From Patescibacteria group bacterium (GTDB lineage Bacteria > Patescibacteriota > Patescibacteriia > UBA1558 > GWA2-36-10), in the NCBI GenBank assembly GCA_018062885.1, contig JAGORJ010000004.1, forward strand, positions 1 to 48,168: a stretch of DNA of 48,168 bases, read 5' to 3'. The notes under the pieces were generated by a model. The model saw only the letters and a list, made by a program, of their open reading frames with translations. It did no database searches and was not told the DNA's origin. Shown piece by piece: positions 2,804 to 35,160 of the stretch (the stretch's first letter is position 1; each line of letters starts with the position of its first letter). The translations under genes and the position numbers were made by a program.

Positions 2804-4573
2804 ATGGAAAACATTAGAAATTTTTGCATAATCGCGCATATTGATCACGGTAAATCCACCTTGGCAGACAGGATGTTAGAGGTGACTAATACCATTGATA
2901 AGCGCAAAATGAAAAACCAGGTCCTTGATCAAATGGACTTGGAAAGAGAGCGTGGTATCACCATCAAGCTTCAACCAGTGCGTATGCAATGGCATGGCTA
3001 TACTTTGAATTTGATAGACACTCCCGGCCATGTGGATTTTACTTATGAGGTATCTCGGTCACTAGCTGCTGTAGAAGGTGCTATTTTGTTGGTTGACGCA
3101 ACCCAAGGCATTGAAGCTCAAACTTTGGCTAATTTGTATTTAGCTTTGGAGCAAAACTTAGAGATTATTCCCGTGATTAACAAAATTGATTTACCAGCTT
3201 CTGATGTGGAAACAGTTTCCAAAGAAATAGTCAATTTGCTTGGTTGTAAAAAAGAAGACATATTATTGACCTCAGCCAAAACTGGTCAAGGCGTAGAAGC
3301 TGTTTTACAAACAGTGATAGACAAAGTGCCAGCTCCAAAAAGCCGTGCCGATGAATTGCAAGCTTTGATTTTTGATTCAGCTTATGATGAATACCGAGGT
3401 GTAGTGATTTATATTCGTGTCTTTGGCGGAAATCTCAAAAAAGGCCAGTTAGTAAAATTTTCTGCCACCGAAGAAAAAACAGAAGTTTTAGATCTTGGCT
3501 TTTTTCAGCCTTCATGGGTAAGCTCAGATGAGCTTGAAAATGGCAGTATCGGCTACTTAGTGACCGGTGTGAAAGATTTGTCTTTGGCTAAAGTGGGTGA
3601 CACTATCATCAGCCAAGAAAGCACTACCAAAGCTTTACCAGGCTACAAAGAAATCCGTCCCATGGTTTATGCTGGTATTTTTCCCACTGATGGCGGTGAA
3701 TATAATAAATTGCGAGAAGCAATTTTAAAATTAAAGTTAAGTGATGCAAGTCTCGTTTTTGAGCCAGCTAGCTCTCAGGCTTTAGGCTTTGGTTTTCGTT
3801 GTGGATTTTTAGGCTTATTGCATCTAGAAATTTTCCAAGAAAGATTAAAACGAGAATTTAACTTGGCTTTGATAGTCACTATACCGACAGTAGCTTATAA
3901 ATTGTTTTTACAAAATGGCCAAGAAAAAATCTTGACCACTCCAGCTGAGATGCCGGATCCTAATCACATCGAACACACCGAAGAGCCTTATGTAAAAATT
4001 GAAGTAGTTGCACCCAAAAGCTATATTGGTGATTTGATTGCCTATATCATCGAACAGCGAGGACTTGCTCAAGACACTGAGTATTTAGATGAAAACCGTG
4101 TTATTTTGCGCTACGAAATACCTTTAAGCAGTGTCTTGGTTGATTTTTATGACAAAATAAAAAGCATTTCCTCAGGCTATGCTTCAATGAATTATGATTT
4201 TTCTGATTACAAAAAATGTGATTTAGTCAAAATGGACTTTTTGGTAGCCGATAGTCCAGTGGAGGCTTTGACCATGCTGACTTATCGAGATCAAGCTCAT
4301 ATGGTAGGCAAAAGGGTGGTAAATAAATTAAAAAATGTTTTACCTAGAGCTCAATTTGCTATCAAAATACAGGCAGCTATCGGTGGTAAGATTATTGCCG
4401 CGGAAAAAATATCTCCGATGCGTAAAGATGTGACCGCTAAACTCTACGGTGGTGATGTGACGCGTAAAAGAAAACTCTTAGACAAACAGAAAAAAGGTAA
4501 AAAAAGAATGGCCCAATCAGGGCGAGTGATCATTCCGCAAGAGGCTTATTTAGCAATCTTAAAAAAAGATTAG
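2804..4573 (+). CDS. lepA: Elongation factor 4 (LepA)
   Basis: A 589-residue translational GTPase that binds stalled or mistranslocated ribosomes. All G motifs are intact: AHIDHGKS (11-18), RGIT (50-53), DTPGH (72-76), NKID (126-129) and SAKTGQG near residue 162. The C-terminal part has the EF-G domain V-like fold and the LepA-specific tail ('KLYGGDVTRKRKLLDKQKKG'). The length is close to that of other LepA proteins (about 600). It starts four bases after murJ. No terminator is seen behind it; instead its last codons overlap the end of a possible convergent small gene. Confidence 0.97.
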   Translation: MENIRNFCIIAHIDHGKSTLADRMLEVTNTIDKRKMKNQVLDQMDLERERGITIKLQPVRMQWHGYTLNLIDTPGHVDFTYEVSRSLAAVEGAILLVDATQGIEAQTLANLYLALEQNLEIIPVINKIDLPASDVETVSKEIVNLLGCKKEDILLTSAKTGQGVEAVLQTVIDKVPAPKSRADELQALIFDSAYDEYRGVVIYIRVFGGNLKKGQLVKFSATEEKTEVLDLGFFQPSWVSSDELENGSIGYLVTGVKDLSLAKVGDTIISQESTTKALPGYKEIRPMVYAGIFPTDGGEYNKLREAILKLKLSDASLVFEPASSQALGFGFRCGFLGLLHLEIFQERLKREFNLALIVTIPTVAYKLFLQNGQEKILTTPAEMPDPNHIEHTEEPYVKIEVVAPKSYIGDLIAYIIEQRGLAQDTEYLDENRVILRYEIPLSSVLVDFYDKIKSISSGYASMNYDFSDYKKCDLVKMDFLVADSPVEALTMLTYRDQAHMVGKRVVNKLKNVLPRAQFAIKIQAAIGGKIIAAEKISPMRKDVTAKLYGGDVTRKRKLLDKQKKGKKRMAQSGRVIIPQEAYLAILKKD

Positions 4574-4665
4574 GCCAATCCTATACCGACAGTAAATAAA
4601 AGCATAGAAAAGATAATCAAGACTGCTAAAACTATCATAATTCTTCGTTGAATTTTTTTCCGCAC
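4570..4665 (-). CDS. Possible 31-residue single-pass membrane peptide
   Basis: On the minus strand a frame from GTG 4665 to a TAA at 4570-4572, inside the lepA stop region, encodes 31 residues. It has a basic start (RKKIQRRIM) followed by about 20 hydrophobic residues ending in GIGLA, which is a convincing single transmembrane helix with a cytoplasmic N-terminus. A minus-strand promoter (TTGTCC, 18 bases, TATAAT at 4731-4702) lies about 30 bases upstream of the start. An in-frame ATG at 4638 would give 22 residues and lose the basic end. No good Shine-Dalgarno is present. I do not recognise a family, and the gene could be chance. Confidence 0.45.
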   Translation of the reverse strand: MRKKIQRRIMIVLAVLIIFSMLLFTVGIGLA

Positions 4666-4701
4666 AAATTTTTCGTTTAGTTTCTTTTATTCTTTAAGTA
4701 T

Positions 4702-4733
4702 ATTATAATACATTTGTCTGCTTTTGGACAAAT
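4702..4733. promoter_or_regulatory. Two-way promoter with inverted repeat
   Basis: TATTATAATA at 4701-4710 is its own reverse complement, so it offers a -10 box on both strands. Minus strand: TTGTCC (4731-4726), 18-base spacer, TATAAT (4707-4702), serving the 31-residue peptide. Plus strand: TATAAT at 4704-4709 with only a weak -35, serving the gene at 4734. The minus -35 lies within an inverted repeat ATTTGTC/GACAAAT (4712-4718 and 4727-4733) that ends at the ATG at 4734 and could be an operator or a start-site hairpin. Confidence 0.5.
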
Positions 4734-5180
4734 ATGCCTCATAATTTTCAAAATTTTTTAGATCTTGATGAATCCTTACTTTGCGTATCCAAGCGAAAAA
4801 AGGATTTGAGATCTTTTTATTTTATATTTTTTCTTATTTTACCTTTACTTTTTTTCTTTTTATACCCACTGATGTCCTATGGTCGTTATGGTCTGAGCCT
4901 ATGGCTAAGCCTGATTTTTTTAAGTATTTATATATTTATCATAAAATTTAATCACAATGATGATTTATATCTACTGACAAACAAAAGATTATTATTTTTA
5001 CATAAAAAAGCCTTAGACTATCAGCTAAAAGGCTCTGTGAATTTGACTAAAATAACTAAGCTTAAAAAAATCGGCAAAAATAATCTTAGCCTGTGGCTAG
5101 CACACAAACGCTTTGATTTATTACATCTAGAAAATAGAGATAGTATTTATCAAAAAATTGTGCAATTAAAATTAAAATAA
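4734..5180 (+). CDS. Small membrane protein with PH-like domain
   Basis: A 148-residue protein with two hydrophobic segments (about residues 27-48 and 54-70) followed by a soluble part containing 'DLYLLTNKRLLFLHKK'. The pattern 'YxLTNKRLL' after two membrane helices is typical of bacterial PH-like domains (bPH_2/YdbS type), which sit on the inner face of the membrane; the role of such single-domain proteins is unknown. It stands alone, with a promoter -10 about 25 bases ahead and a separate promoter for the next gene behind it. Assignment by pattern only. Confidence 0.65.
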   Translation: MPHNFQNFLDLDESLLCVSKRKKDLRSFYFIFFLILPLLFFFLYPLMSYGRYGLSLWLSLIFLSIYIFIIKFNHNDDLYLLTNKRLLFLHKKALDYQLKGSVNLTKITKLKKIGKNNLSLWLAHKRFDLLHLENRDSIYQKIVQLKLK

Positions 5181-5182
5181 TT

Positions 5183-5211
5183 TTGTTGTTTATGGGAATT
5201 TTTGTTATAAT
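5183..5211 (+). promoter_or_regulatory. Extended -10 promoter for 5228 operon
   Basis: TTGTTG (5183-5188), 17-base spacer, TATAAT (5206-5211), with TGT directly before the -10 (extended -10). The expected transcription start is near 5218, leaving only about ten bases before ATG 5228, so the message would be almost leaderless. Confidence 0.65.
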
Positions 5212-5227
5212 ATAAGCATTCATTTAT

Positions 5228-5698
5228 ATGGCAGACAATAATTTTGAAATACCACAGTCAGTTGAGCAAGTGAATAAAGTAGAGGCGAGTGCGGCTCAAG
5301 CGACAGAAAACAAGCGAGAACAAGCTGTTCGGGAAAATATCCAACATTCCGAAGCAGCTAATATTGATTTGTCCAAAATAAATAATGCTACTAATAATCA
5401 AATAGTTCGAAATTCAGACATAGAACTTAAAAAAGTAGAAAACATTTTGGCGGAAAATATGGACAAGGTTTTTTTGTCTTTAGATGCGCCTACGCAAATG
5501 ATATTCAAAAACAAAGGTGAAGAAGTAGCTAAAAAAATCAACGTTTTATTGCAGTCTGGTCAAGTCAAAATAAAAAAAGTCTTAGATCTTATTTTAGAAT
5601 GGTTGCGGGTAATTCCCAAAATCAATAAGCATTTTTTACAGCAAGAAGCCAAGATCAAAGCGGATCAAATAATGAATTTATATCATAAAAATAAATAA
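5228..5698 (+). CDS. Unknown protein ahead of membrane ATPase
   Basis: A 156-residue soluble protein. The first 60 residues are polar and rich in N, Q, A and E, and look disordered; from about residue 65 the sequence is helical with alternating charged and hydrophobic residues ('LKKVENILAENMDKVFLSL', later 'VLDLILEWLRVIPKINKHF'). No signal peptide or membrane segment is seen. Its stop overlaps the start of the next gene by one base (TAATG), so the two are probably translationally coupled and work together. I know of similar short proteins ahead of HerA-type ATPase genes in Patescibacteria, but no function. Confidence 0.7.
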   Translation: MADNNFEIPQSVEQVNKVEASAAQATENKREQAVRENIQHSEAANIDLSKINNATNNQIVRNSDIELKKVENILAENMDKVFLSLDAPTQMIFKNKGEEVAKKINVLLQSGQVKIKKVLDLILEWLRVIPKINKHFLQQEAKIKADQIMNLYHKNK

Positions 5699-8142
5699 TG
5701 ACTATTAGTTTAAATCTAATTCTTTTTCTGGTTTTGCCGATAATTATCTTACTTGGCTTAATTTTTTTTATTTTTTGGTACAAACGCAGTATCAATAAAC
5801 ACATTGAGCTAGAAATATTATCTTTTAAGATTCCAAAATATACCCAAAAAGACCAAGAAATTTTGAGCAAAGAGTATATCAATAGTGCTTTGGGTAAAAT
5901 AGAAAATTTATTTACCGCTCTAGCTGGCTTAAAAGCGGAAAAAACTTGGAAAAAAGAACAGATTTTTTCTTTAGAAATGGTGGCGCTTGATGGCGAGATT
6001 TGTTTTTATGCCGCTGTACCCAAAAAACTCAAAGAATTTTTTATCCAACAATTTCAAGCTGCTTATCCAAAAATTTATTTTGAAGAAATTCCTGACTACA
6101 ATATTTTTGAAGCCAACTCTGCGATCAAAGCTGGCGCCTTGAGACTAAAGAATGATTTTGCTTTGCCGATCAAGACTTATCATGTTTTTGAAAATGATCC
6201 CTTAGAAAGTATCACCAATGCTTTAAGTAAGCTCAATGAACATGAAGCAGCGGCCGTGCAATATGTTTTTCGCTCAGCCAACAAATCTTGGCATCAACGA
6301 GGCCGTAAAATCATCAAACACATGCAAGAGGGTATGAGCTTAAAAGCAGCGGTTGATAAAGCCGGTACTATCGGTTTTGCTGGGTTTATATCAGCCACTT
6401 TGAGTTTTATAGCTAGTTTTTTCAAATCAAGCGATAAAGAAAAAGATGGCTTAAAAAACTATCCGGAAAAAAACATTGCTTCAGCTAAAGAACAAGAAAT
6501 CAGCAAGCTTTTGGAAGACAAAAACTCCAAGCCAGCTATGGATGTAAATATTCGCATTGTGGTTGCTAGCCAAAACATTGAGCGCTCCAAGATGCTTTTG
6601 GATGACGTGCTCAACAGCTATGCTCAGTATAATATTTATGAATTTGGTAATAGTTTTGAAGCACAGATACCAAGAAACCCAGATAAAATCATTGAAGAGT
6701 TTATTTTCCGCCAATTTAAATCCAATAGACGCTTGCTTCTCAATGCCGAGGAAATGGTCAGTATGATTCATCTGCCTTTACCGACTACCGAAACGCCAAA
6801 TATCGCTTGGCTAGAGGCTGTCAAAGCGCCACCACCAAACAACATGCCACAAAATGGCTTGATATTAGGCAAAAGCTCTTATCGTGGCCGAGAAACTCTC
6901 GTGCGCATCAAAGACAATGACCGTCGCAGGCACATGTATATCATCGGTCAGACTGGTGTTGGTAAATCGGTTTTACAAGAAAGTTTGATAGTCCAGGACA
7001 TTCAGTCTGGCAAAGGTGTTTGTGTGGTTGATCCCCATGGAGACTTGGTAGAGGCTATCATGTCGCATATCCCCAAAGAAAGAGCTGAGGATGTCATTTT
7101 GTTTGATCCAGCTAATTCTGACAGACCTTTGGGCATGAACATGCTTGAGTATGATACCGAAGAGCAAAAGTCTTTTGTGATCAATGAAATGATCGCTATC
7201 TTTGATAAACTCTACAATCTCAAAGCGACTGGTGGTCCAATGTTTGAACAGTACATGCGTAATGCGATGTTGCTGATCATGGATGATAAAAATGAGGGCG
7301 CAACTTTGTTGGAGATCCCCAAGATTTTGGCAGATGCTAATTTTAGAAAACAAAAGTTAGCTAAAGTTTCCAATCAATTTGTCAAAGATTTTTGGGAAAA
7401 AGAAGCCGAGAAAGCTGGTGGTGAAGCAGCTTTGGCAAATATGGTGCCTTATATCACCAGTAAACTGACACCTTTTATTTCCAATGATCTTATCAGACCG
7501 ATTATTGCCCAAAGTAAAAGTGCTTTTAATTTTCGTGAAGCCATGGATAGCGGCAAAATTGTTTTGCTCAATCTTTCCAAAGGTAAAATCGGAGAAACAA
7601 ATAGTAGTTTACTTGGTATGATTGTGATCGGAAAACTTTTGTTTGCTGCTATGAGTAGAGTCAATATCGCTGAAGAAGAGCGCAAAGATTTTTATTTATA
7701 CATTGATGAGTTCCAAAATTTTATCACCGACACTATTTCTATTATTTTATCTGAAGCGAGAAAATATCGTTTAGGCTTGGTCCTGGCTCATCAATTTATT
7801 GCGCAGTTAGTCAAAAATGGTGAGACCAGTGTCCGCGACGCTATCTTTGGTAATGTCGGCACTATTATTTCTTTCCGTATCGGTGTAGAGGACTCTGAAG
7901 TAGTGGCTAAACAAATGGCACCAGTAGTGACAGAATATGATTTGATCAACATGCCAAAACATACTTGTTACGCCAGACTTTTGATCGACAATGCCGCTCC
8001 ACCAGCCTTTAATTTTAAACCTATCATGCTGGAGAAAGGCAATTTTGAACTAGCGCAAGCCATCAAAGAGTTATCAGCCTTGAAGTATGGTAGAGACAAA
8101 AAACTGGTTGACCAAGACATTTTGTATCGTTCTGGCTTATAA
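5698..8142 (+). CDS. Membrane-anchored HerA/VirD4-like ATPase, fused form
   Basis: An 814-residue protein combining a membrane/periphery module with a motor. Residues 5-29 are a membrane helix; about 35-390 resemble the separate 508-residue protein at 17100 (both carry an 'S.E.V..DG' strand and later 'YP...EE..DY'). From 395 a DUF87/HerA-TraG-type ATPase follows, with Walker A GQTGVGKSV (417-425), DPHGDLVE, and Walker B YLYIDEFQNF (D670, E671). Families with this motor pump DNA or couple substrates to type IV secretion. No relaxase or other secretion gene is nearby, so transport of DNA or protein is inference. A terminator follows at 8164. Confidence 0.8.
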   Translation: MTISLNLILFLVLPIIILLGLIFFIFWYKRSINKHIELEILSFKIPKYTQKDQEILSKEYINSALGKIENLFTALAGLKAEKTWKKEQIFSLEMVALDGEICFYAAVPKKLKEFFIQQFQAAYPKIYFEEIPDYNIFEANSAIKAGALRLKNDFALPIKTYHVFENDPLESITNALSKLNEHEAAAVQYVFRSANKSWHQRGRKIIKHMQEGMSLKAAVDKAGTIGFAGFISATLSFIASFFKSSDKEKDGLKNYPEKNIASAKEQEISKLLEDKNSKPAMDVNIRIVVASQNIERSKMLLDDVLNSYAQYNIYEFGNSFEAQIPRNPDKIIEEFIFRQFKSNRRLLLNAEEMVSMIHLPLPTTETPNIAWLEAVKAPPPNNMPQNGLILGKSSYRGRETLVRIKDNDRRRHMYIIGQTGVGKSVLQESLIVQDIQSGKGVCVVDPHGDLVEAIMSHIPKERAEDVILFDPANSDRPLGMNMLEYDTEEQKSFVINEMIAIFDKLYNLKATGGPMFEQYMRNAMLLIMDDKNEGATLLEIPKILADANFRKQKLAKVSNQFVKDFWEKEAEKAGGEAALANMVPYITSKLTPFISNDLIRPIIAQSKSAFNFREAMDSGKIVLLNLSKGKIGETNSSLLGMIVIGKLLFAAMSRVNIAEEERKDFYLYIDEFQNFITDTISIILSEARKYRLGLVLAHQFIAQLVKNGETSVRDAIFGNVGTIISFRIGVEDSEVVAKQMAPVVTEYDLINMPKHTCYARLLIDNAAPPAFNFKPIMLEKGNFELAQAIKELSALKYGRDKKLVDQDILYRSGL

Positions 8143-8163
8143 AATTAATCTAAATTTTAGCTA

Positions 8164-8193
8164 AAAAATACCTATTGAAAAGTAGGTATTTTT
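8164..8193 (+). terminator. Intrinsic terminator after 5698 ATPase
   Basis: ATACCTA (8168-8174), an eight-base loop, TAGGTAT (8183-8189), extended by flanking A and T runs and ending in TTTTT. The loop carries the -35 of the next promoter. Confidence 0.8.
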
Positions 8194-8203
8194 ATGTTAT
8201 TCT
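8175..8203 (+). promoter_or_regulatory. Promoter overlapping terminator, for 8229
   Basis: TTGAAA (8175-8180) sits in the terminator loop; a 17-base spacer leads to TATTCT (8198-8203). The expected start is near 8210, about 19 bases before ATG 8229. Confidence 0.55.
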
Positions 8204-8228
8204 AAAGGTAGAAAAATAAAAATAAAAA

Positions 8229-8822
8229 ATGCCAAACGCAAAAAATATTAAAGATCTAGAATCTTTGATTTACAATCTAGAACTAGAGCTCAAAAAAACC
8301 AAAGTAGTCTTGGGTGAATTGCAGGGTAAAAAGGGCTCCAAGGCTATTGATTATAGCCTCAAAGCCGCTGAATATGGCCGTGAAGACAACGAAGACGACG
8401 CTATGGTGGTAGAGGGTGTCTTTAATGGTCAAATCATGATCGGACCAGACGGTAAACAGTATTCTGTACCCGCTAATTACGCTTCCAAATCCAAATTAGT
8501 TGAGGGTGACATTTTGAAGCTCACGATTGATAACTCCGGCGCCTTTATTTTCAAACAAATTTTACCGGTAGAAAGACAGAGATTGATAGGACATCTGGTC
8601 AAAGATAAAGAAAACGGTAACTTTGTAGTTTTGGCAGGAGAAAAAATATTTAAAGTTTTATTAGCCAGCATTACCTATTTCAAAGGTGATGAAGGTGATG
8701 AAGTGGTAATCTTGGTGCCCAAAGACGCTGATGGTGCTTGGGCAGCCGTAGAAAATGTGATCAAAAACAAACAGTATAATAATTATCAAAGCGAAGAGGA
8801 GGATTTAGGCATTAATTTATAA
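8229..8822 (+). CDS. Conserved-looking protein, coiled coil plus beta domain
   Basis: A 197-residue protein. Residues 5-35 form a leucine-rich coiled coil ('DLESLIYNLELELKKTKVV'), a linker follows, and residues about 60-180 are rich in beta-type, glycine-punctuated strands ('GQIMIGPDGKQYSVPANYASK', then 'EGDILKLTID'), suggesting one or two small barrel (OB/SH3-like) domains. The tail is acidic. It sits two bases ahead of dnaX, so a link with replication or transcription is possible. I recall similar proteins in Patescibacteria, sometimes misnamed as ribosomal proteins, but I cannot name a function. Confidence 0.7.
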   Translation: MPNAKNIKDLESLIYNLELELKKTKVVLGELQGKKGSKAIDYSLKAAEYGREDNEDDAMVVEGVFNGQIMIGPDGKQYSVPANYASKSKLVEGDILKLTIDNSGAFIFKQILPVERQRLIGHLVKDKENGNFVVLAGEKIFKVLLASITYFKGDEGDEVVILVPKDADGAWAAVENVIKNKQYNNYQSEEEDLGINL

Positions 8823-8824
8823 AA

Positions 8825-10327
8825 ATGTCAGAGGTATTATACAGGAAATATAGACCAAAAATATTTAAGGAAGTAGTAGGTCAAAGGCCTATTAAGGTGA
8901 CTTTGGAAAACGAAATTATTTCCGGTCAGGTCGCTCATGCTTATTTATTTGTTGGACCAAGAGGAACGGGCAAAACTACTTTAGCCCGTCTTTTTGCTCG
9001 TTCATTAAATTGTCTTGCTAGAGCCAAAGACAGCTCTGAGCCTTGCAACACTTGCCAAACTTGTCAAAACAATCTGCGCAATCAGTCTTTGGATGTCATC
9101 GAGATAGATGCAGCTTCACACACAGGCGTAGATAATGTCAGAGAAAATATCATTGCTAGTGCCCAAATACCGCCATTTAACCAAAACGGCTACAAAGTAT
9201 TTGTGATTGATGAAGTGCACATGCTTTCAAAATCAGCTTTCAATGCTTTACTCAAAACTTTGGAAGAGCCACCAAAAAAAGTGATTTTTATTTTGGCTAC
9301 CACCGAGATTCATAAAGTGCCTGAAACTATTATTTCCCGTTGTCAGCGTTTTGATTTCAAAAAAATTCCTCAAGCCGATGTGATCAAACGCTTAAGCGAA
9401 ATCATTGAGTGGGAAAATGTCCAAATAGATGAAAAAGTTTTGGCGCAAATTGCCCGTCGTTCCGAAGGTTGTTTGCGTGATGCTGAGTCTCTTTTGGGTC
9501 AAATCATTTCTTTGGCCAATGGCCAAGTGACTGATGATCTGATTTCTTTGGTTTTACCGCGAAACAATTGGCAAGAAGTAGATATTTTACTGGAAGCTTT
9601 ACGCCTAAAAAATTTATCCGCCGCTTTGAATCAAATAAATAAATTAGTAGAAGAGGGGATAGATTTGGATAGTTTGCAAAATGATTTTTTAAGCTATGTC
9701 AGACAAGTGATGCTCTATAAAATCATTGGCTCAGACTTTTTGTTTGACTTGGATGTTTCTGGTCAAGATAATATCAAAAAACAAGCTGAAGATTTCCAGC
9801 TTAGCGAATTATCCCGCTTAATCAATATTTTACTCAACAAATTTAGTCACAAACAACAGGGTCTGATAGACCAATTGCCTTTGGAGTTGGTTTGCGTAGA
9901 GTTTTTGTTGGCTTTCCAAGAAAAAAATTCTACAGCAAATATTTCAGCTAGCATTCAAACAAGCGAACAAGATATTCTGGTCAATGCTCAAGATCTAGAT
10001 ATCTTGCAAAACAATTGGCATAAACTCGCAGAAAGTTTAAAAACATTAAATCACGCAAGTTCTACTTTGATCAAAGGCACTCATCCTTTGAAAATTGAAG
10101 AAAAATATGTCACTCTAGGCTGTGAATTTAGTTTTCATGTAGAACAATTAAGCAAACTAGACATCAAACAAGCGATAGAAAACTCTTTGACGGAAATATT
10201 AGCTCGTAGTGTGCTAGTCAATTTTGAGATAGACACTAACTACAAAAACGCTCACCAGAATTTTAAAGGTGGCGCTGAAGAAGGAGTTGAAGAGGTGGTG
10301 GATGTTTTTGGTGGTGAGATAATATAA
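8825..10327 (+). CDS. dnaX: DNA polymerase III subunit gamma/tau
   Basis: The clamp-loader ATPase of the replisome, 500 residues. It begins with the family start 'LYRKYRPKIFKEVVGQ'; Walker A is GPRGTGKTT (44-52), zinc-binding cysteines are C63, C74, C77 and C80, Walker B is VIDEVHML near 120, and sensor/arginine-finger motif SRCQRFDF is near 174. Domain III runs to about residue 365, followed by a short C-terminal part, so the tau-specific region is reduced compared with E. coli. The start lies two bases after the previous stop. No frameshift signal for making a shorter gamma was noticed. Confidence 0.96.
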   Translation: MSEVLYRKYRPKIFKEVVGQRPIKVTLENEIISGQVAHAYLFVGPRGTGKTTLARLFARSLNCLARAKDSSEPCNTCQTCQNNLRNQSLDVIEIDAASHTGVDNVRENIIASAQIPPFNQNGYKVFVIDEVHMLSKSAFNALLKTLEEPPKKVIFILATTEIHKVPETIISRCQRFDFKKIPQADVIKRLSEIIEWENVQIDEKVLAQIARRSEGCLRDAESLLGQIISLANGQVTDDLISLVLPRNNWQEVDILLEALRLKNLSAALNQINKLVEEGIDLDSLQNDFLSYVRQVMLYKIIGSDFLFDLDVSGQDNIKKQAEDFQLSELSRLINILLNKFSHKQQGLIDQLPLELVCVEFLLAFQEKNSTANISASIQTSEQDILVNAQDLDILQNNWHKLAESLKTLNHASSTLIKGTHPLKIEEKYVTLGCEFSFHVEQLSKLDIKQAIENSLTEILARSVLVNFEIDTNYKNAHQNFKGGAEEGVEEVVDVFGGEII

Positions 10328-32791: not shown

Positions 32792-33262
32792 ATGTTAAAC
32801 CAAAAAGGTCTTACTTTTATTGAAATAATGTTGACAATCAGCATTGCTGCTTTGATTGCTGCGATGGGCTTCAGTGGTTTTTATCAATGGCGTAATCATA
32901 TTTCTCTACTAAATCAAGTCGATGAACTAAAAAGTAATATCGTCAAAGTCAGACAACTAGCAATTTCTGCTGCTGGAGAAAAAAAATGGGGCATCCGTCT
33001 TGAAGACTCACAATATATTATTTTTAATAGTGATAGCTATGACCAAAGTAACCCAAATAATGAAACTATTTTATTAAAAAGTGCTTTGATCTATGAATCT
33101 GAGACTAGCCTTTCAAATGGCAACGGCGCTTATAGTTTGGATTTAATTTTTGAAAAATTCACCGGCCAAACAATAAACATCGGTACCATCACTTTGGTCT
33201 CACTGAACAATCCAGAAGTACGTTATAGTTTTAGCGTGGATAATCTAGGTAATATAAATTAA
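32792..33262 (+). CDS. Type IV pilin-like protein (GspH-like)
   Basis: A 156-residue prepilin. The leader is very short and ends in KG, followed by the methylation motif LTFIEIMLTI, so prepilin peptidase should cut after G6 and leave the conserved glutamate at position 5 of the mature protein. A hydrophobic helix to about residue 28 and a small beta-rich head ('LAISAAGEKKWGIRLEDSQYIIF') are like GspH/FimT minor pilins. It lies two bases after pilC and overlaps the next gene by one base (TAATG). Confidence 0.88.
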   Translation: MLNQKGLTFIEIMLTISIAALIAAMGFSGFYQWRNHISLLNQVDELKSNIVKVRQLAISAAGEKKWGIRLEDSQYIIFNSDSYDQSNPNNETILLKSALIYESETSLSNGNGAYSLDLIFEKFTGQTINIGTITLVSLNNPEVRYSFSVDNLGNIN

Positions 33263-35160
33263 TGCCTCAAAAAATAAAAAATCAAGGCTTCTCTCTCATC
33301 GAGCTACTAATCGCGATTGCTTTTATTGGTGTGATTATCACCTTGATTATGACGATGAATTCTTTTAACGCTGATTTATGGCGCTTAAATGAAAATAAAA
33401 CCAAGGCTTATTTTTATGCCTCTGAAAGTTTAGAAGCCATCAAGTTGCTCAACTGGTCAGAATTAGCTGACGGCGACTATCATCTAGTCCTACAAGATGA
33501 GGCTTGGTCTTTAGTAGAGGGAGCGGAAATTTTGGAGGAAAAATATACTCGCACTATAAATATTTCTAGTGTAAATAGAGAATTTATAGACAATGGTCAT
33601 GTTTATGGAGAGATAGTAGAAAACGGAAATATTGATCCTGATAGTAAAAAAATAACAGCTCAAGTCACTTGGTTAGGCAAAAATGCCCAAACGCAAGAAA
33701 TACTTTTGGAAAATTATTTGAGTCGCTGGCAAGCCAAAAGATTTGTACAAACAGATTGGTCTGGTGGTAGTGGCCAAAGTGATTGGACTGAAGAAAACAA
33801 GTTTTTTAACAAAAATATTGCTATGAGTACTGCCGTAGAAGGCATCGGTACTTTGGTGTCTGGATTTTTGGACTGGAACCAAGCAGTTCCCACCTCAACT
33901 TTTGATTTATTAAATAGCAGTGCCGATGTCAATGATGTCTATGAATACGGTGATTATGTTTTTATAGTAACCTCAAATAATTCTGCTGGTTCTGAATTTT
34001 TTATTGTAAATATTAGTGACAAAAAAAACCCTTCTTTAGTGTCTTCATTAAACATTGGCGCAGCCGCTAGCTCTATAGTTGTGCAAGACGATTATGCTTA
34101 TGTAGGCACATCATGGGATGACAAAGAGATAAGAGTGATTGATATAAGTAATTTAAATATACCAGTAATTGAAGTAAATATTAATTTAGACGGTACCCAA
34201 AATGTTTTAAGCTTGGATATTAGTGCCACGCAATTATATGTTGCCCAAGGCAATTATCTGCGTAGCATAGACATCAGCAACCCAAGTGCTCCGACAGTAT
34301 TAGATAGTATTGATTTAAATGCCACAGCCCGCAATGTTTTTGTTTCTGCCGACAATGTTTATGTAGCCACCCAAAATTCTAGTCAAGAATTACAAATCAT
34401 TGATGCTAGCAATCCTGCTAACTTAGCCAATATAGGCAACTTTAATTTGTCCGGATCTTTGATAGCGACTGATGTTTTTGTCTTGGGAAACAGAGCCTAT
34501 GTTTCGACTGATACTAACTCTGGCTCTGAATTTTTTGTACTAGATATTTCTTCGACCAACGCACCGGTTTTATTAGGCTCTTATAACACAGGAGCAAGAG
34601 TTTATGCTTTCAAAATAGTCGGTCCTTATGCCATTTTGGCTTTAAATAATTCTAGTAAAGAAATAGAAATTTTAGATATTAGCTTTCCTGCCACTATCAA
34701 TAGCATCAAAAGCTTTGATTTAAGCGCTTTGGTATATGGACTCAGCGCTAACTGTGCTTTTATCTATGCTGGTAGCACCAGTAACACTCAAGAACTCATT
34801 GTCATTTCCACCCAAGTCGCTGAATGTGGCTATGAAAACAATGGCCAGCTAGAGTCTTCAACTTTTGATACTGGTTCAAGCCAAGTGAGCTACAACTGGA
34901 TTGCTTGGTCAGGCTCACAACCAAATGACACGACAATTCGTTTTCAAATTGCCACCAGCAACAACGCAAACGGCCCTTGGAATTTTGTCGGCCCAAGTGG
35001 AAACTCCAGTGATTATTATACTACAGCTGCCAAAGAGTTTATCAACCACAGCCATCACCTTGATCAAAGATATTTGCGCTATAAACTTTTTTTAAGTAGC
35101 GCTGATGAATTGCAAATACCTATTTTAGAAGAAGTCAAAATTAGTTATTCAAATCACTAA
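33262..35160 (+). CDS. Large minor pilin with beta-propeller (LVIVD repeats)
   Basis: A 632-residue prepilin: NQG then FSLIELLIAIAFIGV gives a normal cleavage and assembly helix. The head is exceptionally large. From about residue 220 to 490 there are roughly six repeats of the type 'DVYVFGDYAYV....ELQIIDISNP', the LVIVD-type beta-propeller pattern (for example 'SLDISATQLYVAQGNYLRSID' and 'NVFVSADNVYVATQNSS'). The last 110 residues form another beta domain ('TIRFQIATSNNANGPWNFVG'). Such a pilin would most naturally sit at the pilus tip and bind a surface or host; that is inference. One-base overlaps on both sides tie it to its neighbours. Confidence 0.88.
   Translation: MPQKIKNQGFSLIELLIAIAFIGVIITLIMTMNSFNADLWRLNENKTKAYFYASESLEAIKLLNWSELADGDYHLVLQDEAWSLVEGAEILEEKYTRTINISSVNREFIDNGHVYGEIVENGNIDPDSKKITAQVTWLGKNAQTQEILLENYLSRWQAKRFVQTDWSGGSGQSDWTEENKFFNKNIAMSTAVEGIGTLVSGFLDWNQAVPTSTFDLLNSSADVNDVYEYGDYVFIVTSNNSAGSEFFIVNISDKKNPSLVSSLNIGAAASSIVVQDDYAYVGTSWDDKEIRVIDISNLNIPVIEVNINLDGTQNVLSLDISATQLYVAQGNYLRSIDISNPSAPTVLDSIDLNATARNVFVSADNVYVATQNSSQELQIIDASNPANLANIGNFNLSGSLIATDVFVLGNRAYVSTDTNSGSEFFVLDISSTNAPVLLGSYNTGARVYAFKIVGPYAILALNNSSKEIEILDISFPATINSIKSFDLSALVYGLSANCAFIYAGSTSNTQELIVISTQVAECGYENNGQLESSTFDTGSSQVSYNWIAWSGSQPNDTTIRFQIATSNNANGPWNFVGPSGNSSDYYTTAAKEFINHSHHLDQRYLRYKLFLSSADELQIPILEEVKISYSNH

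Follow-up and report, generated by a model that had tools for sequence, protein, structure and literature searches.

We analyzed a window of 48,168 nucleotides (contig JAGORJ010000004.1, positions 1 to 48,168) from a member of the Patescibacteria. It encodes a protein that joins a pilin stem, a seven-bladed LVIVD beta-propeller, and a C-terminal beta-sandwich in one reading frame (Table 1). Judged by its operon slot and stem profiles, this LVIVD pilin is the I-type (GspI/PilV/ComGE) minor pilin of an H-I-J-K tip complex. It is not a main shaft pilin with a head. It probably acts as the I subunit of a type IV pilus tip complex that would display the propeller, the sandwich, and the PA14 domain of the adjoining K pilin and bind a ligand on a cell or surface. 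The fusion is kept across the family and recurs across the phylum, which suggests that the propeller pilin is the part of this small-genome bacterium that touches other cells or surfaces.

Table 1. Genes of the pilus operon and parts of the LVIVD pilin (window coordinates).
Feature	Coordinates	Strand	Evidence
pilB/gspE-type extension ATPase, 577 aa	29858..31591	+	PF00437 1.4e-126; MshEN
pilC/gspF-type platform protein, 394 aa	31605..32789	+	PF00482 1e-55
H-type (GspH/FimU/ComGD-like) minor pilin, 156 aa	32792..33262	+	PF07963 above cut-off; PF12019 weak, 0.01; ComGD 2.6e-5
LVIVD pilin ORF, 632 aa	33262..35160	+	ORF with zero internal stops; prepilin start; LVIVD repeats
Class III leader peptide, residues 1-9, KNQG then FSLIE	33262..33288	+	Sequence; N_methyl and TIGR02532 matches
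Pilin stem, residues 10-160, I-type (GspI/PilV/ComGE)	33289..33741	+	AlphaFold2; stem profiles
Conserved linker, residues 161-208	33742..33885	+	Orthologue alignment; also present in further headed pilins of the class
Seven-bladed LVIVD beta-propeller, residues about 209-518 (AlphaFold2 blades 209-516)	33886..34815	+	PF08309; AlphaFold2; Foldseek
C-terminal beta-sandwich, residues about 522-632 (AlphaFold2 model 527-631)	34825..35157	+	AlphaFold2; class-wide HMM matches
J-type (GspJ/PilW/ComGF-like) minor pilin, 175 aa	35160..35687	+	PF07963; ComGE 6.6e-4; ComGF 1.3e-3; position
K-type (GspK/PilX-like) minor pilin, 320 aa	35691..36653	+	No Glu5; PA14 PF07691 3.7e-10

An earlier note on this DNA had described a normal prepilin start, LVIVD-type repeats, a beta-propeller, and a second beta domain, and each of these was borne out. 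The N-terminus, MPQKIKNQGFSLIELLIAIAF, is a canonical prepilin start. Its KNQ-GFSLIELLIAIAF segment matches TIGR02532 above that model's own cut-off and N_methyl (PF07963) at E 3.5e-4, just below the Pfam cut-off. GFS..E is invariant in the 19 aligned orthologues. The AlphaFold2 model of the whole protein was built on the alignment of these orthologues. In it, the stem consists of an alpha helix (residues 12-60) followed by the pilin beta sheet (71-154). The linker contains the motif WxGGxGQ (residues 166-172, window 33757-33777), in which W166, G168, G169, G171, and Q172 are invariant.

Pfam places LVIVD repeats (PF08309) on five stretches of the protein (E 6.7e-23) and also gives a Beta_propel match (6.4e-7). 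Tandem LVIVD-type repeats of about 42-46 residues make up the propeller. The model has 28 strands in seven four-stranded blades, with propeller pLDDT mostly 80-95. Strand 209-214 probably closes the last blade. Foldseek returned WD40-type seven-bladed matches such as 6zxf chain g (295 residues, TM-score 0.83 by target length, rmsd 3.0). The propeller is an extra domain after the pilin fold and is not specific to pili; AlphaFold2 shows the two as separate modules. Confidence is medium for the whole model (mean pLDDT 76.6, pTM 0.60) and low for the stem helix and linker, so the mutual placement of the modules is not reliable. No match to PF05567, the PilY1 propeller, was found in the protein. 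A PilY1 homologue was excluded on this result together with the presence of the pilin stem.

The C-terminal domain folded alone with a mean pLDDT of 92.9 (AlphaFold2, alignment of 27 diverse sequences). A class-wide HMM placed it at the C-terminus of many headed pilins. A PDB profile search gave no significant match, and a Pfam scan of 27 copies gave no convincing family. Foldseek found weak likeness to MAM, CBM32, and similar sandwiches, none with E < 0.001.

Two sets of residues stand out in the head. Glutamate occupies an equivalent place in six of the seven blades (residues 245, 289, 376, 423, 467, and 511; window 33994-34794). These residues are invariant or nearly so within the family and are common at the equivalent place in LVIVD pilins elsewhere. 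They may form a ring of acidic residues on one face of the propeller. The sole two cysteines, C498 near the propeller end (34753-34755) and C522 at the start of the C-terminal domain (34825-34827), are invariant in the 19 orthologues and possibly form a disulfide clamp.

Full-length orthologues in a single ORF were retrieved from 19 of the 21 genomes of the GTDB family, including the window's own. In genome G004 the copy is truncated after residue 172, where the contig stops, and G003 gave weak partial matches only. The orthologues are 45-62% identical to the window copy, and their alignment has 84 invariant columns. Mean conservation of the head equals or exceeds that of the stem, and the junction between them is among the better conserved parts. 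GC and GC3 of both parts are like those of the adjoining genes. Because this one ORF recurs in 19 of the 21 genomes, an assembly artifact, a frameshift, and a chimera were all excluded as the origin of the fusion. That the propeller is built into the pilin as one gene, as first proposed, holds. There is next to no chance that two genes were fused by a sequencing or assembly error. At 5730-7116 of the distant relative L072, a stem of 134 aa and an LVIVD propeller of 359 aa do lie in overlapping frames, but the ORF is uninterrupted in the 19 family genomes and at 14 loci from 10 other families, with its junction well kept. The arrangement in L072 may be a frameshift, an assembly error, or a real split.

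A single-protein scan of named genomes gave no match. The alignment-based scan matched the family members Candidatus Komeilibacteria SI047_bin69 and 'Parcubacteria' SI075_bin20. It also matched a Dojkabacteria locus with the identical full architecture.

The pilB-pilC-H-I-J-K genes are tightly packed or overlapping. Relatives with inspected flanks keep this order and likewise have the fusion next to pilB and pilC. The LVIVD pilin gene sits between the H-type and J-type genes, with the K pilin downstream. Glu5 is missing from the K pilin in all seven copies inspected, while H, I, and J retain it. The capping K subunit is recognized by its lack of Glu5 (PMC9934059). The PA14 domain of the K pilin was also present in all five relatives tested, and PA14 is one of the modules catalogued in modular pilins (PMC8179133). 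Given its I slot in this operon and the adjoining K pilin with PA14 and without Glu5, the LVIVD pilin is likely to be located at a type IV pilus tip.

Stem profiles point to the same subunit. Among 35 related stems, ComGE matched 33, GspI 29, XpsI 23, and PilV 16 (best 3.6e-9); GspJ matched 13 and GspH 12. The window stem alone scores below curated cut-offs, with matches mostly within the helix. ComGE was thus the best stem model, and the neighbors match ComGD and ComGF, as they would in a Com-type DNA-uptake pilus. The headed I pilin would then belong to a competence filament, and the head would bind DNA or aid uptake. We consider this unlikely. The ComG matches fall mostly on the N-terminal helix that such pilins share, and the heads of I-slot pilins and their K neighbors are propeller-, lectin-, CBM-, and PA14-type modules. 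DNA uptake could also be served by a second locus with PilB, PilC, PilT, PilM, and two pilins on contig C3 of the same genome.

H-I-J-K minor pilin sets occur in type IV pili and type II secretion alike. GspE and GspF models score the window's PilB and PilC as highly as PilB and PilC models do. Both points would suit a type II secretion-like pseudopilus with the propeller as cargo adaptor or plug. The absence of a secretin (GspD, PF00263) from all 21 family genomes, in a search that gave matches in six control genomes, argues against this reading and leaves it very improbable.

Further major-type pilins are encoded on contigs C43 and C2, and neither a major pilin nor PilT adjoins the operon. 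No PilD (prepilin peptidase, PF01478) was found in the assembly of the window organism. PilD is present in 18 of the 21 family genomes, so this is likely an assembly gap. The absence of PilY1 was dropped as an argument, since the PilY1 search matched in no control genome either. The window also encodes a TraG/VirD4-like coupling ATPase (814 aa, 5698-8142) that is possibly part of a type IV secretion locus.

By analogy with known systems, PilD would cleave the leader of the LVIVD pilin. The H-I-J-K complex would prime and cap the filament, with the I stem inserted in the tip complex. The adjacent PilB and PilC would extend the filament, which would draw its major pilin and its retraction motor, PilT, from other loci in the genome. 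At the tip, I would expose its propeller and C-terminal sandwich, and K its PA14 domain, and these would bind a partner cell or surface. A glycan, protein, or polymer of the partner cell is a candidate ligand. Because the head is so well conserved, a common ligand is favored over one narrow host, and either such a ligand or a structural role would suit it better than a host receptor that changes fast.

Matches to parts of the model are widespread among the 286 genomes sampled from the class and the 333 sampled from the phylum. Outside the class, the same operon slot bears LVIVD propellers in about 15 families (20 loci fetched). These loci were chosen for their match and show spread, not frequency. 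Stem, LVIVD propeller, and C-terminal sandwich form one ORF in 14 of the 20, from 10 families. In those 14, pilC and the gene of a short pilin lie upstream of the ORF and another pilin gene lies downstream. Others have a form of about 470-510 aa that lacks the C-terminal domain.

Within the class, the same slot also bears Laminin_G_3 with CBM_4_9 (laminin-G/ConA lectin, CBM4/9), DUF4082, and DUF2341 heads, heads with no assigned family, and double propellers. On a PilC tree of 47 operons, a sample biased towards loci matching the model, the propeller label changes about eight times, and at least three changes are forced by well-supported branches. Heads have thus been gained, lost, or exchanged more than once. 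A survey that started at the top-scoring pilC in each of 40 genomes was only partly usable, since it drew in several pilC paralogues. It gave about a dozen loci with an I-type stem, from 140-177 aa (headless) to about 750 aa, one of them with an LVIVD propeller.

The propeller might instead chiefly stabilize or prime the tip, leaving binding to the PA14 domain of K or to nothing in the complex. Good conservation of the head in the family and the PA14 domain in every K pilin copy tested are compatible with such a cap. In other lineages, however, I-slot heads are swapped for unrelated domains or missing (140-177 aa), so the propeller is not needed for assembly as such, and we think a mainly structural role improbable. 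A head that binds a cell or surface from the I subunit remains our preferred reading.

Several loci have further arrangements. The WxGGxGQ motif recurs ahead of unrelated heads, often with a C-terminal domain behind, as if the two bracketed the head. Co-occurrence of linker and C-terminal domain was 10/6/5/15 (Fisher p 0.04), but this statistic ignores kinship and carries no weight in our argument. Locus L161 encodes two adjacent propeller pilins in one operon (972 aa, 4205-7123, and 1061 aa, 7074-10259), both with the stem and C-terminal domain. At L125, the C-terminal beta domain is present both in the I-slot pilin (514 aa) and in the J-slot pilin that follows it (527 aa).

The I subunit of Patescibacteria could be a display slot whose interchangeable binding heads replace the stand-alone PilY1 of other bacteria and set the partners or surfaces to which a cell attaches. 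We offer this tentatively, at slightly less than even odds. The slot would comprise the stem, often the conserved linker and C-terminal beta-sandwich, and a head that is often LVIVD but may also be lectin or CBM. To our knowledge, little is established about how Patescibacteria recognize partner cells. Should display prove to be a general function of the I slot, a short scan of genomes would yield a candidate binding protein for many uncultured lineages. Soluble heads could then be tested for ligands without growing the organism.

As far as our searches show, the I slot as the head-bearing position across the phylum is new. We found no earlier description of the I-slot pattern, its spread, or head exchange in the open-licence literature. 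A propeller inside a pilin, which the earlier note had taken to be unusual, is real here but has precedents (PMC8179133, PMC12206443). Modular pilins number > 1,200 proteins in 264 architectures (PMC8179133). They include a Candidatus Falkowbacteria pilin of 860 aa with 12 copies of IPR013211, the LVIVD repeat (Raynaud et al. 2021; PMC8179133). The window protein therefore belongs to a known kind. Like it, the Falkowbacteria pilin combines an N-terminal pilin motif and LVIVD repeats in one patescibacterial protein. That entry comes from an InterPro listing as a motif of unknown function, and the main text gives no operon, subunit type, fold, or conservation (PMC8179133). The window protein differs in its single propeller of seven blades and its C-terminal beta-sandwich.

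PilX2 of the Saccharibacterium Nanosynbacter lyticus TM7x is also a patescibacterial minor pilin with a seven-bladed propeller (2025; PMC12206443). It is a proposed adhesin needed for normal host binding, and its deletion lowered bound host cells from 10.6% to 4.6% (PMC12206443). PilX2 has RCC1 repeats, no predicted PilD signal peptide, and a pilin locus away from pilB2/pilC2 (PMC12206443). The window protein, in contrast, has a canonical prepilin start, LVIVD repeats, and the I slot behind pilB-pilC. Taken with the slot and the K-type neighbor, the TM7x precedent lends good support to a putative tip location and host or surface binding.

PilB and PilC of Streptococcus sanguinis are likewise modular minor pilins with an adhesive module on a pilin stem, and models place them at the tip of this monoderm's type IV pilus (PMC8179133, PMC9934059). 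Their modules are vWA and lectin, and the I-like PilA has none, whereas in the window the I-type pilin bears the module. PilY1/PilC1 of proteobacterial type IV pili is also a beta-propeller presented at the tip by minor pilins. It is a separate, non-pilin protein with a PF05567 propeller, whereas the LVIVD blades of the window protein are covalently joined to the pilin.
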